From assembly GCF_026229185.1 (NCBI RefSeq), contig NZ_JAGGJA010000007.1, positions 62,001-126,000 of the forward strand: a DNA stretch of 64,000 nucleotides, given 5' to 3'. The DNA is from Fodinibius salsisoli. Its GTDB lineage: Bacteria > Bacteroidota > Rhodothermia > Balneolales > Balneolaceae. Below, one piece after another: positions 9,345-16,983 of this stretch. The notes beneath the pieces were generated by a model. It had not been told where the DNA came from. It saw nothing but the letters and a program-made list of their open reading frames with translations, and searched no databases. Numbering within the stretch: position 1 is the first letter of the stretch; the number at the start of each line of letters is the position of its first letter. Both the position numbers and the translations under genes were made by a program.

Positions 9345-11030
9345 ATGAAAAACTTACGCCGCCTTATTCTTCGATTTGGGATATTACTTTCCCTGACTGC
9401 TGTTATCGCATACCCAGCTGCTGCTCAAGACTCAGGAGTACTGGCTACCGAAGCGGATACCCTCCGTGGATCCATAACACCACAACGAGCCTGGTGGGAA
9501 GTCACCTATTATGATCTGCTTGTTACTGTGCAGCCCAAGGATTCTGCTATTTCCGGTTACAACAATATTACCTATCGGGTAACCGGACAACCTCAACAAC
9601 TTCAAATAGACCTACAGCAGCCATTGCAGATCGACCAGATAAAGCAACAAGGCCACAGCCTGAGCTATCAGCGTGTGGATAAAAGCAACGCCTACTTTGT
9701 AGATGTACCAGCAAATCTGAGTAAAGATTCACTTTATACGCTTTCCGTTTATTATCATGGGCAGCCGAAAGTAGCCGAAAATCCACCGTGGGATGGCGGT
9801 TTCATCTGGGCACAGGATTCCCTCGGCAATCATTGGGTGGCTACCGCCAACCAGGGACTGGGAGCCAGCGTCTGGTGGCCCAACAAAGATCACCAAACAG
9901 CTGAGCCGGACAGTATGTCCATTAATATTACGGTGCCCGACCCAATGATTAACGTATCCAACGGCCGGCTCCGGGATTCTACTCACCATGATAACGGCAT
10001 GACTACGTGGAGCTGGTTCGTCTCCAATCCCATTAATAACTACAACATCTCCGTCAATGTCGGCAATTATGTAAACTTTATGAATACATTTGAAGGCCGA
10101 GAAGGGACTCTTGATTTGAGTTACTGGGTGCTTAAGCCCAACCTGGAGAAAGCCAAGGAACAGTTCCAGCAGGTTAAACCTATGATGCGCTGTTTTGAAG
10201 ATTGGTTTGGTCCCTATCCCTTTTACGAGGACAGTTTTAAGATGGTTGAAACACCTCATTTAGGAATGGAGCATCAAAGTGCCGTAGCCTATGGCAACCA
10301 TTATCAAAATGGGTATATGGGAACGGACCTTTCGGGCTCCGGCTGGGGACTCAAATGGGATTTTATTATTATCCATGAATCCGGCCACGAGTGGTGGGGC
10401 AACAATATTACGACCAAAGATATAGCCGATATGTGGGTGCATGAAGGCTTCACCAGCTATTCTGAATCGATTTATACCGAATGCCGGTTTGGTAAAGAAG
10501 CCGCTGCCGAATATACCATTGGGCTGCGCGACCGGATCGAGAACGAAAGTCCAATTATTGGTGAATATGGTGTCAATCAGGAAGGGTCCGGTGACATGTA
10601 CTATAAAGGACACAATATGCTGCATACCATCCGGCATATTATCGCGGATGATGCAAGCTGGAAGAACATTCTGCTGGGCATTCAGAAAGACTTTTACCAT
10701 CAAACGGTAACATCGCAGCAAGTTGAAGACTATATCAATGAGCGAACGGATTACGATCTGGATCCAGTATTTGACCAGTACTTACGCCATAGTGCCATCC
10801 CTGTTCTTGAATATCATATAAAGGATCGGACACTGCATTATCGCTGGAACGCAGATATTACCCCTTTTGATATGCCTGTCAGGGTGACCTTAAAAGAAAA
10901 CCGTTATTCCTTTATACAACCTACCACCGAATGGCAGCAGACCACTATTTCGCTGGATAACGCCGACCATTTTAAGGTAGATCCCAACTTTTATATTGAG
11001 ACGAAATTGAAGGTCTCCTCTGGCAGCTGA
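9345..11030 (+). CDS. Secreted M1 family zinc metallopeptidase (aminopeptidase)
   Basis: A gluzincin aminopeptidase acting on the amino ends of peptides, likely periplasmic or extracellular. The 561 residues start with a signal peptide (cleavage near AYPAAAQ, about residue 28). The M1 N-terminal beta domain is followed by the substrate-recognition motif GMEHQ at 307-311 (GxMEN-like), zinc motif HESGHEWWGNN with ligands H344 and H348, catalytic E345, and third ligand in MWVHEGF near E367. The C-terminal M1 helical domain is short, as in many Bacteroidota M1 peptidases. It is monocistronic. The substrate is unknown. Confidence 0.93.
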   Translation: MKNLRRLILRFGILLSLTAVIAYPAAAQDSGVLATEADTLRGSITPQRAWWEVTYYDLLVTVQPKDSAISGYNNITYRVTGQPQQLQIDLQQPLQIDQIKQQGHSLSYQRVDKSNAYFVDVPANLSKDSLYTLSVYYHGQPKVAENPPWDGGFIWAQDSLGNHWVATANQGLGASVWWPNKDHQTAEPDSMSINITVPDPMINVSNGRLRDSTHHDNGMTTWSWFVSNPINNYNISVNVGNYVNFMNTFEGREGTLDLSYWVLKPNLEKAKEQFQQVKPMMRCFEDWFGPYPFYEDSFKMVETPHLGMEHQSAVAYGNHYQNGYMGTDLSGSGWGLKWDFIIIHESGHEWWGNNITTKDIADMWVHEGFTSYSESIYTECRFGKEAAAEYTIGLRDRIENESPIIGEYGVNQEGSGDMYYKGHNMLHTIRHIIADDASWKNILLGIQKDFYHQTVTSQQVEDYINERTDYDLDPVFDQYLRHSAIPVLEYHIKDRTLHYRWNADITPFDMPVRVTLKENRYSFIQPTTEWQQTTISLDNADHFKVDPNFYIETKLKVSSGS

Positions 11031-11113
11031 CCACAGCAATCAACTTTACACATTTTATTTGTATGATTTGCAAAAAACAATTATGTTAGCATTCAAACTT
11101 AAAAAGTCAGTCC

Positions 11114-11197
11114 ATGAAACAAATTTTTACAAATATTATTACCTGTCGGATGTGCATTCTACGGCTTTGCATGGCCTGTATACATCCGGAGGACTGA
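11114..11197 (+). CDS. Possible Cys/Met-rich leader peptide upstream of the met operon
   Basis: A 27-codon ORF beginning ATG AAA CAA. The product is MKQIFTNIITCRMCILRLCM followed by ACIHPED, with four Cys (11, 14, 19, 22) and two internal Met (13, 20) packed into 12 residues. It lies 27 bases before a strong intrinsic terminator and 94 bases before the SAM riboswitch. The composition and position resemble an amino-acid attenuation leader. The block GGCTTT (11163-11168), inside the Cys-rich part, could pair with AAAGCC (11225-11230) in the terminator's 5' arm. There is no clear Shine-Dalgarno sequence. Translation and function are inferred, and chance is possible for so short an ORF. Confidence 0.45.
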   Translation: MKQIFTNIITCRMCILRLCMACIHPED

Positions 11198-11223
11198 TTA
11201 GTTTCACGATTTGAAGCAAACTC

Positions 11224-11257
11224 AAAAGCCCTTCGGAAGACCCCGAAGGGCTTTTTT
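11224..11257 (+). terminator. Intrinsic terminator between the leader ORF and the SAM riboswitch
   Basis: A perfect arm AAAAGCCCTTCGG (11224-11236) pairs with CCGAAGGGCTTTT (11243-11255) around a 6-base loop and runs into six T (11252-11257). It may simply end the M1 peptidase transcript, or act as an attenuator for the downstream operon. Confidence 0.9.
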
Positions 11258-11290
11258 GATTTGTGTATTGTTCTTTTGATTTACTGAGCA

Positions 11291-11425
11291 CTCTTATCAA
11301 GAAAGGCTAAGGGATCAGGCCCGAAGACGCCTTGGCAACCGCCCTGCACATAAAACTGTTCTTTTTAGTTTTAATGCGGGGGATAGGTGCCACTTCCTGC
11401 TCCAACTATAGAGGAGAAAGATAAG
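11291..11425 (+). promoter_or_regulatory. SAM-I (S-box) riboswitch
   Basis: The aptamer follows the SAM-I consensus: CTCTTATCAAGAAAGG at the 5' side, GGGATCAGGCCCGAAGACGCC for the kink-turn/P2 region, TTGGCAACC, a variable P3 arm, GGTGCCACTTCCTGC, and a 3' strand GATAAG (11420-11425) closing P1 with CTTATC (11293-11298). When S-adenosylmethionine is bound, P1 is stabilised and the downstream terminator forms. AAGAGGC (11427-11433) can pair with GCCTCTT (11456-11462) as antiterminator when SAM is low. Downstream genes are methionine biosynthesis genes, which fits. Confidence 0.95.
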
Positions 11426-11453
11426 TAAGAGGCCATTATCCGAATGTTCTACC

Positions 11454-11516
11454 AAGCCTCTTCTAATATCTTCTCTCCCCAACGGAACGGAAGGTTTTAG
11501 AAGAGGCTTTTTTATT
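11454..11516 (+). terminator. Expression-platform terminator of the SAM riboswitch
   Basis: AAGCCTCTTCTAA (11454-11466) pairs with TTAGAAGAGGCTT (11497-11509), a 13-bp stem with a 30-base apical region, followed by a T-rich tract to about 11516. It ends 36 bases before the first gene of the operon. Confidence 0.9.
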
Positions 11517-11551
11517 TATTGGATAGTTTTTTATTCGAACAAAGAAAAAAT

Positions 11552-12052
11552 ATGAGGACGACCTTTAACAACTGGTATGACCAAAAAATGCGGGCTACGG
11601 AAGAGTTAAATAGCGAAACCAATCGTGCTGAAGAAACACTCTCAGCTATCTCTTCTATCGCCATCGTGGGTTTGTCACGCAGTTTTCATAAAGACAGCCA
11701 GTTTGTAGGACGTTACCTGCAAAATGCAGGGTATACCATCGTCCCGGTAAATCCTAATGCGGATACCATTCTCGGGGAAAAAGCGTATCCGGACCTCAAA
11801 AGCATTCCATCTCCCGTGGATGCCATCGATGTGTTCCTGCCGCCGGATTATATTCACAAGGCCGTCGACCAGGCACTCGAACTGGATCCACAGCCACGAG
11901 CTATCTGGCTACAGTTGGGAACGGGAAAACAACCCGAGCAAATCGACAGAGTAAGGGGAACCGGTATTGAGCTATATGAAAACCGGTGCATTAAGGTCGA
12001 TCATCAATTTTTGATACGGCCCAAAGAAAAGAAGGGTAAACTAACTAATTAA
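11552..12052 (+). CDS. CoA-binding (Rossmann-fold) protein, first gene of the SAM-regulated operon
   Basis: A 166-residue protein of the CoA-binding domain family (YccU-like): SSIAIVGLSRSFHKDSQFVG gives the nucleotide-binding start, then GRYLQNAGYTIVPVNPNADT, LGEKAYPDLKSIP, VDAIDVFLPP and a Cys-Ile-Lys-Val-Asp-His end (NRCIKVDHQFL). Family members bind CoA-like or nucleotide ligands in vitro, but a general reaction is not known. I use the ATG at 11552; an upstream TTG at 11519 would add 11 residues and lies directly on the terminator's tail. It lies 19 bases before metY and behind the SAM riboswitch, suggesting a role linked to sulfur amino acids. That link is inferred from context. Confidence 0.85.
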   Translation: MRTTFNNWYDQKMRATEELNSETNRAEETLSAISSIAIVGLSRSFHKDSQFVGRYLQNAGYTIVPVNPNADTILGEKAYPDLKSIPSPVDAIDVFLPPDYIHKAVDQALELDPQPRAIWLQLGTGKQPEQIDRVRGTGIELYENRCIKVDHQFLIRPKEKKGKLTN

Positions 12053-12065
12053 TCTTAGACCATAA

Positions 12066-13391
<1,326 letters not shown>

Positions 13392-13519: not shown

Positions 13520-14569
13520 ATGAGCGACATAAAATCACATACATTTGATGAAGCATTTGTGACTGAGGGGGACGATACTATATCTGCCCCCACTGTCGCT
13601 TACCAAAGCTGGGGAAGCTTAAATGAAGCCCGCAACAATGTGATTGTGGTATGCCATGCTCTAACGGGCAATACATCAGCCAATGAATGGTTCCATGGGA
13701 TTATCGGTCCTGGTAAAGCCCTGGACCCTGAGCAACATTTTATTATCTGTCCCAACTCTTTAGGCAGCTGTTATGGCAGCAGTGGTCCGGTCTCCCTTGA
13801 CCCTGAAACCGGCCAGCCTCTGCGTGCGGATTTTCCGGAAATAACCATTCGTGACATGGTCCGGCTACAGCAGCAATTGCTCGATCATCTTCAAATCGCA
13901 AGCATTGAGCTTGTCATTGGAGGCTCCATGGGGGGCATGCAGGCCCTCGAATGGTCCATTATGGATGACCGACCGCAGGCTTCCATCCTCATAGGAATGG
14001 GGAAAGAACACAGTCCTTGGACTATCGGTATCAGTCATGCCCAACGGCAGGCTATTTTTAACGATCCGAATTGGGAAGGAGGCTACTATTCTTCAGAAAA
14101 GCCACCCCGGAAAGGGTTGGCCCTGGCTCGTATGATTGCTATGATCAGCTATCGCACTGATGGTGATTACAGAAATAAATTCGGCCGCCTGCTGCAGGAT
14201 GGCTCCGACGATTACCAGGTGGAATCGTACCTCAACTACCAGGGGGGCAAGCTCGTTGATCGGTTTGACGCTGTCTCTTATGTACGACTGACCCAAGCCA
14301 TGGATAGTCATGATGTGGGCCGCGACAGGGTTTCTTCTAAAGACGCTCTGCAGGAGGTCGATATTCCGGTACTGGTTATCGGCACTGATTCAGATCTGCT
14401 GTATCCCGTTCATGAGCAACAAGAACTGGCACAACTGCTGCCCAACGGACGATACCATGAAATTGAATCAATCTACGGGCATGACGCTTTTTTAATTGAG
14501 TTTGAACAAATGAACAATATTATCGCTCCCTTTTTAGCGGAAACTTCAACACCAACGATTTATTCCTGA
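13520..14569 (+). CDS. metX: Homoserine O-acetyltransferase
   Basis: Acetylates homoserine from acetyl-CoA, giving the substrate of MetY. It has an alpha/beta-hydrolase fold of 349 residues: nucleophile Ser in GGSMGGMQ near S136, the Asp in GTDSDLLYP near residue 293, and the His in YGHDAFLIE near residue 320. NSLGSCYGSSGP and the ALTGN oxyanion region match MetX. Acetyl versus succinyl specificity is inferred from the MetX family and pairing with MetY. The gap to metY is 128 bases with no hairpin seen; the gap to thrA is only 2 bases (TGA TA ATG), so the two are likely coupled. Confidence 0.94.
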   Translation: MSDIKSHTFDEAFVTEGDDTISAPTVAYQSWGSLNEARNNVIVVCHALTGNTSANEWFHGIIGPGKALDPEQHFIICPNSLGSCYGSSGPVSLDPETGQPLRADFPEITIRDMVRLQQQLLDHLQIASIELVIGGSMGGMQALEWSIMDDRPQASILIGMGKEHSPWTIGISHAQRQAIFNDPNWEGGYYSSEKPPRKGLALARMIAMISYRTDGDYRNKFGRLLQDGSDDYQVESYLNYQGGKLVDRFDAVSYVRLTQAMDSHDVGRDRVSSKDALQEVDIPVLVIGTDSDLLYPVHEQQELAQLLPNGRYHEIESIYGHDAFLIEFEQMNNIIAPFLAETSTPTIYS

Positions 14570-14571
14570 TA

Positions 14572-16983
14572 ATGAATCATCCCTCGAAACATATTCTAAA
14601 GTTTGGCGGCACTTCGCTGCAAAACCAGGCATTCATTAAACAGTCTGCCCAAATTGTTATTGACCGATCGAAATCAACCCAGCCCTTTGTGGTTGTTTCG
14701 GCGCTGGAAACGGTGACCGATACGCTTATGCTGTTGAGTGATGAGCAGGGTATGACTGGCCAGGAGATAAATCAAGAAGTTGAGACGCTGGAAAAGAAAC
14801 ATCTGGATCTTTTTGATGAGCTCGCAGATGAAGATGACCACCGGCGAGAACAACTTCAAAGCCTCTTTAACGAACTATCTGAGACTATCCATGATGAGGC
14901 CCTTAAAGCTCAGGATCAACGAGCCTGGAAAGATCGCATTCTCTCGGTGGGAGAACGAGCTTCTGCCCTCATCTTTGCTGCAACACTCTCAAAATGGGGA
15001 CTTCCCGCAGAGGCTTTTGAAGCCTATCAGTTTATTAAAACCGACTCTACGTTCGGCCAGGCCAAAGTACAGCAGGAGGCCACCCGCAAGTTAGTACGCA
15101 AGTTCTTGCAATCATCAGAAACCACGCCGGTAGTCACTGGATTTATCGGTTCTGACGATGAACAACGTATTACTACACTGGGGCGATCTGGTTCTGATTA
15201 TACGGCCGGCCTTCTCGCTGACGCACTGGATGCCGATCATCTTGAAATATGGACTGACGTAAACGGCGTGCTAACAGCCGATCCGCGTTGGGTCCCCACA
15301 GCGCAACCCATTGATGAACTAAGCTTTGATGATATCGGCGAACTATCGGCGCACGGGGCAAAGGTTATACATCCAAAAACAATTCGGCCGCTAAGGGGAC
15401 AAGATACTTCTGTTACCGTAAAAAACAGCTTCAATCCGTCGCATCCGGGAACAAGCATAAACAATGCGTACCAATCCAATGGAGCGTTTAAGACCATTAC
15501 CATTACAGGACCTTTTACGCAGTTTCAGATTGACGACAAGTTTGCCTATGATTTGTTGGAGCACCTTAATGAATGGCTGGATGGAGAAACCGATTCCGAA
15601 GCCCTCTCATATCAGCGAAATTCCAGCTTTGAACCGGCTCGTTTCCTAATCCGACAATCTTTGTTTGGTAAAGTCCGCGAACATATTTACAATTGGGCCG
15701 ATGTTCGAAAGGTTTCACTTAGTCCCAAAAAGGACATCTATAAGGTGAAAAAGTTTAGCAATCACTTTAAAAAAGACGAACGCCTGACCGAACGTATTTG
15801 GAATTTACTCGCTTCAAAAAAGTTGCATCCATTAAATATTAATAGAAACAGGGATGAACGTTTCATCTCTTTGTTGTTTGAAAAAGACGAGGCCCATCGT
15901 GCAGCTCGTTTGCTTAACGACTATCTGCAGCACGAGAAAACCACCGTTGATTTATTTGTAGCCGGCACGGGCGCTGTAGGGAAGACGTTACTCAATCAAT
16001 TAAAAGTTACGGATCTCGACGAACTTGATTTCCGGCTTTTGGGTACTTGTAACAGCCGCCAGGTGCTGTGGGATGATAACGGAATAGGTATGCACGCCGA
16101 CTGGGATTGGTCCAAAGCTGAAGAAACCGACTGGGATCTTCTAATAGACAAACTCTGTGAACGCTTCCGCCACAATTTAATCTTTGTGGATGCAACCGGC
16201 AGTTCCCAGGTAGCACGACTCTATCCCCGTCTTTTTGAAAATGGTATCCATGTGGTAACACCCAGTAAGCTGGCCAATACGTTTGAGCAATCATTTTTTG
16301 ACCAACTACAGTCCGAATCCAGCAAAAACAAGGCTTTCTTTCAATACGAAACGACTGTTGGGGCTGGCTTGCCGGTTATCTCAACACTCAAGGATCTACA
16401 AAAAGGCGGCGATGAGATTCAAGAAATATCAGGCGTCGTTTCCGGGACCATGACCTACTTATTTAATCAGCTGGAGCAGGACGTCCCGTTTAGTGAGGCT
16501 ATTATCAAAGCTCGCGAGCTGGGTTACGCCGAACCGGACCCCAGAGATGACCTTTCCGGGGAAGATGTGGCACGCAAATTTTTGACATTAGCACGTACGC
16601 TCGGCCTTAAGGTTGAACGAGAAGAGCTTGAAGTTGAGTCTCTTATACCTGAGGAGCTGGCGAAAACCGATCGAAAAACCTTCTTAGAGCAGCTAAACAC
16701 CTATGATAGTCTCTGGGAAGAACGTGTACAGGAGGCCCGGAAGCGAAATGAACGACTTCGATATACCGGCCGTCTGGCAGATGGAAAAATTTCTGTAGGC
16801 ATTGAATCAGTGCCGGCAAATACACCCATTGGCCAGCTGAAAGGAACAGATAATCTCATCCAGCTTTATTCAAAATTGTATCAAAAAACACCTTTAGTTA
16901 TTCAGGGTCCTGGTGCCGGCAAAGAAGTAACGGCTGCCGGCGTGCTAAGTGACATTTTAAAAACAGCTGAATCACTGAAATAA
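14572..16983 (+). CDS. thrA: Bifunctional aspartate kinase/homoserine dehydrogenase
   Basis: Carries out the first and third steps from aspartate to homoserine. The 803 residues start with the aspartokinase motif KFGGTSLQ (about residues 10-17), then GFIGSDDEQRITTLGRSGSD and WTDVNGVLTADPR. A regulatory/linker segment with ACT-like features occupies about residues 300-455. The homoserine dehydrogenase half starts at LFVAGTGAVGKTLL (GxGxxG near 463-468), with ATGSSQVARLY, VTPSKLANT and the catalytic-region GYAEPDPRDDLSGEDVARK. The length is close to E. coli ThrA (820). It supplies homoserine to metX immediately upstream, so the SAM riboswitch may control flux from aspartate. Threonine branch genes are not in the window. 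Confidence 0.95.
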   Translation: MNHPSKHILKFGGTSLQNQAFIKQSAQIVIDRSKSTQPFVVVSALETVTDTLMLLSDEQGMTGQEINQEVETLEKKHLDLFDELADEDDHRREQLQSLFNELSETIHDEALKAQDQRAWKDRILSVGERASALIFAATLSKWGLPAEAFEAYQFIKTDSTFGQAKVQQEATRKLVRKFLQSSETTPVVTGFIGSDDEQRITTLGRSGSDYTAGLLADALDADHLEIWTDVNGVLTADPRWVPTAQPIDELSFDDIGELSAHGAKVIHPKTIRPLRGQDTSVTVKNSFNPSHPGTSINNAYQSNGAFKTITITGPFTQFQIDDKFAYDLLEHLNEWLDGETDSEALSYQRNSSFEPARFLIRQSLFGKVREHIYNWADVRKVSLSPKKDIYKVKKFSNHFKKDERLTERIWNLLASKKLHPLNINRNRDERFISLLFEKDEAHRAARLLNDYLQHEKTTVDLFVAGTGAVGKTLLNQLKVTDLDELDFRLLGTCNSRQVLWDDNGIGMHADWDWSKAEETDWDLLIDKLCERFRHNLIFVDATGSSQVARLYPRLFENGIHVVTPSKLANTFEQSFFDQLQSESSKNKAFFQYETTVGAGLPVISTLKDLQKGGDEIQEISGVVSGTMTYLFNQLEQDVPFSEAIIKARELGYAEPDPRDDLSGEDVARKFLTLARTLGLKVEREELEVESLIPEELAKTDRKTFLEQLNTYDSLWEERVQEARKRNERLRYTGRLADGKISVGIESVPANTPIGQLKGTDNLIQLYSKLYQKTPLVIQGPGAGKEVTAAGVLSDILKTAESLK

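Follow-up and report, generated by a model that had tools for sequence, protein, structure and literature searches.

The 64,000-nucleotide stretch of the Fodinibius salsisoli genome analyzed here (the window) very probably carries, ahead of methionine genes, a ribosome-mediated transcription attenuator that responds to Cys and Met and is followed in series by a SAM-I riboswitch. The leader would sense charged tRNA(Cys) and, probably, charged tRNA(Met). Judged by comparative sequence analysis, the Cys/Met leader and its terminator are conserved across a bacterial order. A leader-peptide attenuator at this site had been raised as a possibility in an earlier note on this DNA, and it is supported by conserved Cys/Met codons under purifying selection, a co-evolving alternative helix, and a covarying terminator.

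The leader open reading frame (ORF) consists of 27 codons and a TGA stop and encodes the peptide MKQIFTNIITCRMCILRLCMACIHPED, with Cys at positions 11, 14, 19, and 22 and internal Met at positions 13 and 20. With 6 Cys+Met in 14 residues, it is unique among the 1,470 short ORFs of the window; because of this density and the recurrence of the run in relatives, a chance ORF is considered excluded. The ORF is followed by an intrinsic terminator (11224-11255) with 13 pairs, a 6-base loop, and a T-run behind. The elements of the leader region are as follows.

11059-11087, plus strand: TTGTAT-17-TATGTT, a candidate promoter on the 5' side of the leader ORF (by eye; recurrence in relatives)
11114-11197, plus strand: leader peptide ORF with the Cys/Met codons (ORF list; run conserved in relatives)
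11115-11124, plus strand: outer stem, 5' strand, start-codon region TGAAACAAAT (covariation, lineage swap)
11147-11153, plus strand: region 1, CGGATGT, pairing with 11182-11188 (ACATCCG) (fold, lineage swap)
11186-11195, plus strand: region 2, antiterminator strand at the stop codon, CCGGAGGACT (complementarity, lineage swap, geometry)
11197-11206, plus strand: outer stem, 3' strand, ATTAGTTTCA (covariation, lineage swap)
11224-11236, plus strand: region 3, terminator 5' arm, AAAAGCCCTTCGG (terminator prediction, covariation)
11243-11255, plus strand: region 4, terminator 3' arm with the T-run behind (terminator prediction, covariation)
11270-11279, plus strand: boxA-like GTTCTTTTGA at a fixed distance before SAM-I (recurrence across loci)

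The riboswitch and the operon lie downstream.

11291-11427, plus strand: SAM-I riboswitch aptamer (RF00162), 75.1 bits against a gathering score of 44.4
11454-11513, plus strand: SAM-I riboswitch terminator, AAGCCTCTTCT ... AGAAGAGGCTTTTTT (sequence, fold)
11552-12052, plus strand: gene for a CoA-binding domain protein, at the head of the controlled operon (ORF list, family match)
12072-13391, plus strand: metY, O-acetylhomoserine sulfhydrylase (TIGR01326, 691 bits)
13520-14569, plus strand: metX, homoserine O-acetyltransferase (family match)
14572-16983, plus strand: aspartokinase/homoserine dehydrogenase, thrA-like (family match)

The order of parts given in the earlier note, a 27-codon Cys/Met-rich ORF ahead of a terminator, SAM-I, and methionine genes, is thus confirmed by the sequence and by the Rfam and gene-family matches. 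The aptamer is the only SAM-I copy in its own genome. Over 10980-11600, none of the Rfam amino acid leader families reached its gathering score (Phe_leader and His_leader scored 18 to 20 bits against 49 to 55) and the T-box model found no match; a low-threshold Rfam search returned nothing for the leader.

The close relatives of the window are genomes named Fodinibius and Aliifodinibius. SAM-I lies upstream of metY in all 30 metY loci fetched first (L002 to L031), and 27 of these 30 have an ORF in which a stretch of 14 residues contains 5 or more Cys+Met; the ORFs of L021 and L022 have 4, and L020 has no leader ORF. Of 58 genomes of the family, 48 gave a match at the metY locus in a search with a leader model. 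All loci pooled, the collection comprises 47 non-identical leaders, in which Cys and Met make up 31% of residues. The earlier note had proposed to test whether, in relatives, the Cys/Met codons and the terminator arms covary while the rest drifts. The pattern found agrees with this: the ORF sequence diverges and the Cys/Met run stays, as in the peptides MKRIEKHICRLCCMCMCMPHLQPED and MKFSTRYTDCKPACYCMCMCMMCT, and the two arms of the terminator covary across leaders. In a comparison of eight 25-residue leaders of the genus, the Cys/Met block has a pN/pS of 0.27, as against 0.74 for codons 2 to 8. No Cys/Met leader occurs at nine stand-alone SAM-I loci of the same family (L139 to L141 and L143 to L148), and none of 30 regions upstream of cysK contains a Cys leader. 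In Raineya orbicola (L071, 2275-2368), a short ORF whose last seven codons are Cys was also seen between a SAM-I match and metY.

Region 2 is complementary to the part AGCCCTTCGG (11227-11236) of the terminator 5' arm, and this complementarity is present in nearly all leaders. The 2:3 pairing exceeds that of shuffled sequence (Fisher, 5e-28), a value that overstates the case, as the 45 leaders were treated as independent and are related; for the window's own leader alone, the shuffle test gives p=0.14. Column-wise covariation is weak (74.7% paired versus 73.4% shuffled in a single alignment of 42 leaders), partly because clades lie one column apart in register. It was replaced by a lineage-swap test, in which region 2 and the terminator arm were exchanged among 20 lineages. 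Matched pairs scored -14.6 kcal/mol and swapped pairs -11.45 kcal/mol (p=5e-5), and the middle of the ORF, used as a control, gave p=0.61. The pairing is kept through sequence variants, such as GGGTTCG:CGAACCC in L031 and CCGGGGGA:TCCCTCGG in L014. Taken as sequence evidence, these results indicate that region 2 and the terminator 5' arm co-evolve. The outer stem, in which the start-codon region pairs with bases after the stop codon, likewise covaries (lineage swap, p=2e-4). The 1:2 hairpin is found in the window and in most lineages, with a weaker lineage-swap signal than the other helices (p=0.01). By its helices, the arrangement would be that of a classical 1:2 / 2:3 / 3:4 attenuator. Antitermination depending on ribosome position, as the earlier note had it, therefore stands in its principle, upheld by the co-evolution of an alternative 2:3 helix and by the geometry described below, and falls in the base pairing named. 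That pairing, between GGCTTT in the ORF and AAAGCC in the terminator 5' arm, is not conserved; GGCTTT reads GGCTAT in L004 and is absent in most other relatives, and CCGGAGGACT:AGCCCTTCGG takes its place.

For the geometry of stalling, the ribosome footprint was assumed to reach 13 nt beyond the A site. On that assumption, region 2 would remain accessible during a stall at 298 of the 316 Cys/Met codons. For ribosomes positioned on the stop codon, coverage of region 2 is at least 70% in all 43 leaders evaluated. When the window RNA is folded from a stalled ribosome to the terminator loop, before arm 4 has been transcribed, the antiterminator is the predicted structure; when a terminating ribosome masks region 2, the prediction is the terminator. 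Since the full terminator is the stabler of the two folds at equilibrium, antitermination must be kinetic, as in trp.

The ORF, its Cys/Met bias, the co-evolving helices, and the geometry are established by comparison of related loci, and the following course of events is proposed. Transcription would start upstream of the leader ORF. A shortage of charged Cys-tRNA or Met-tRNA would stall the ribosome in the Cys/Met run, leaving region 2 at the stop codon free to pair with the terminator 5' arm, and RNA polymerase would read on. When both charged tRNAs are plentiful, the ribosome would reach the stop codon and cover region 2, and the 3:4 hairpin would terminate transcription. If the leader is not translated, the 1:2 hairpin and the outer stem would hold region 2, and 3:4 would form as well. 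Transcripts that read through would next meet the SAM-I terminator. Since this second terminator lies behind the attenuator, full expression of metY-metX-thrA should require both low Cys/Met charging and low SAM.

The hairpin might instead do no more than end transcription of the peptidase gene upstream, the ORF being a chance occurrence and the operon promoter lying just before SAM-I. The hairpin is indeed the first strong terminator past the peptidase stop codon at 11030, and a scan with the sigma-70 consensus found no promoter on the plus strand. In the window, the consensus score is 9 against 9.1 for shuffled sequence, with no separation (mean over leaders, 9.58 against 8.97), and the candidate promoter therefore rests on position and on recurrence read by eye: TTGTAT-17-TATGTT is found at the same place in L003, L006, and L013. 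In many other genera, a -10-like element, also read by eye, ends 6 to 8 nt ahead of the ATG of the leader, so that translation of the ORF may be nearly leaderless. The site required just before SAM-I has a counterpart at stand-alone SAM-I loci, where a TAnnTT-type element shortly precedes the aptamer, but the 35 nt between terminator and SAM-I in the window contain no -10 element of this type. The gap, 13 to 44 nt in most leaders, likewise has no such element, and most leader-linked loci have GTTCTTT before SAM-I in its place. Moreover, leader and hairpin stay with SAM-I and metY although the upstream gene changes, from a peptidase in the window and its close relatives to an Era-like C-terminus in L018 and L022. 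A terminator serving the peptidase gene would also leave the Cys/Met run, the purifying selection, and the co-evolving region 2 unexplained, and we consider this explanation very improbable.

The attenuator reading also has to be weighed against a real leader whose RNA acts mainly on translation or on Rho/Nus-dependent elongation, not through the intrinsic terminator. Clade f4 (L021, L023, L028, and L029) has no U-tract terminator, though it has kept the Cys/Met leader and the long outer stem around it, and the covarying outer stem takes in the leader start codon. A boxA-like box downstream points the same way. Of 51 loci with a leader, 45 have GTTCTTT(G/A)A on the 5' side of SAM-I at a constant spacing from it. 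It also occurs in leaderless loci of distant Bacteroidota and is not found before the stand-alone SAM-I copies of the same family; besides the window, it was noted in L127 to L131, L158 to L159, and L161 to L164. The motif resembles the rRNA boxA TGTTCTCTGACAT in the rRNA leader of a relative (L167), which was used for the comparison because a search of the assembly of the window's own genome found no 16S rRNA. It is a candidate NusB/NusE site before the riboswitch and may keep polymerase going through the long untranslated leader. Against a mechanism that bypasses the intrinsic terminator, 43 of the 47 leaders have a U-tract terminator, and region 2 co-evolves with the 5' arm of that terminator; such a mechanism is in our judgment very improbable as the main mode of action.

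Motifs of the CMCMCM kind could bind soft metals, and the Cys/Met-rich peptide might therefore itself be the sensor or the product, for instance by binding copper or reporting oxidation, with tRNA charge playing no part. The order of the motif is variable, however, the Cys share of Cys+Met ranges from 0 to 0.83, and the controlled genes are those of sulfur amino acids, and we regard a role of the peptide itself as extremely improbable. The composition of the leader varies with the riboswitch. At metY loci of Ignavibacteria-type relatives that have no SAM-I, either two tandem leaders, each with its own terminator (L062, L064, and L067), or a single leader (L066) precede the gene. These leaders are Met-rich (6 Cys and 48 Met) compared with the 43 SAM-linked leaders (186 Cys and 130 Met; Fisher p=2e-11, with leaders treated as unrelated).

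A second Cys/Met leader with a terminator, met among the weak matches to the leader model, precedes a sulfurtransferase gene in 9 genomes, including that of the window, where it lies at G000:C43:156040-156156 (locus L198) and encodes the peptide MNFHNQIHNFLVMPVAMCCMCMCCCMHMPGGSGTDMRK. Both this leader and the Met-rich metY leaders add support to the attenuator reading. The enzyme is of the 3-mercaptopyruvate sulfurtransferase/rhodanese kind, with a score below the curated cut-off of that family. Region 2 of this leader, GGTAGTGG, matches the terminator arm and lies farther upstream of the stop codon than in the metY leader; for this reason, termination through a re-formed, protective 1:2 hairpin appears the likelier route here. 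A second copy of the sulfurtransferase gene in the same genome (L202) has no leader. Pattern searches of this genome for Cys/Met runs yielded the sulfurtransferase leader as the one further certain case, the other hits lying mostly inside long genes. A small ORF encoding MLSCYYCMCCSIKQGCLFL, possibly a chance occurrence, was noted upstream of an apparent dihydroxy-acid dehydratase gene (L236, G000:C43:173411). Within the same genus, weak matches to the leader model include Trp leaders such as MKKSAHKNINWWWPVKQHTQAVAFL; in L182, L183, L184, L185, and L190 the peptides have WWW or WCW runs and are followed by a terminator and an apparent trpE. Leader attenuators of classical design thus occur in the genus.

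As in the trp, his, and leu attenuators, a biosynthetic operon is preceded by a short ORF in which codons for the amino acids under control abound, and alternative hairpins 2:3 and 3:4, and probably 1:2, are arranged with region 2 at the end of the ORF; the present case differs in combining Cys and Met in one leader and in having SAM-I in series. The closest described cases are the uORFC-8-2 motif and the actinobacterial Cys leaders. The former, found before cysS in Rhodobacterales, has a leader ORF with Cys codons followed by an intrinsic terminator, and ribosome-mediated attenuation was proposed (PMC8632094). It belongs to another phylum and gene, usually has two tandem Cys codons with no Met run described, and has no riboswitch. 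The actinobacterial cys operons likewise have runs of Cys codons in leader ORFs before sulfur genes; these have no conserved terminator hairpin, with Rho suggested instead, and no SAM-I in series (PMC1262725). PMC13236596 also refers to attenuation in response to cysteine, and in Flavobacterium psychrophilum amino acid operons have been suggested to be under leader-peptide attenuation (PMC9723704). SAM-I (S-box, RF00162) here is upstream of met genes and well above its gathering score; what differs is its place behind another RNA element of the same transcript, whereas other copies in the family stand alone. Logic gates made of tandem riboswitches (Sherlock 2018, cited in PMC8632094) similarly place two RNA elements in series on one operon; one of the two elements here would read translation of a leader peptide and not a ligand. 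We found no description of a Cys/Met leader in series with SAM-I in the literature searched, in which subscription papers were few.

The two-input gate is held with lower confidence than the Cys/Met attenuator. We offer tentatively, as a reading somewhat less likely than not, a series gate with divided labor, in which the leader would respond to Cys/Met charging and SAM-I to SAM, the leader leaning toward Cys where SAM-I is present and toward Met, and maybe doubled, where it is absent, and in which the boxA-like site may sustain polymerase. If this is true, one transcript would read both the charging of tRNA with Cys and Met and the end product SAM, through two RNA mechanisms in a row. The range of leader-peptide attenuation would then widen to take in Cys and Met together and, taxonomically, the Balneolales and the Ignavibacteria-type lineages, which would form a natural set with the riboswitch present or absent and the composition of the leader shifting along with it.
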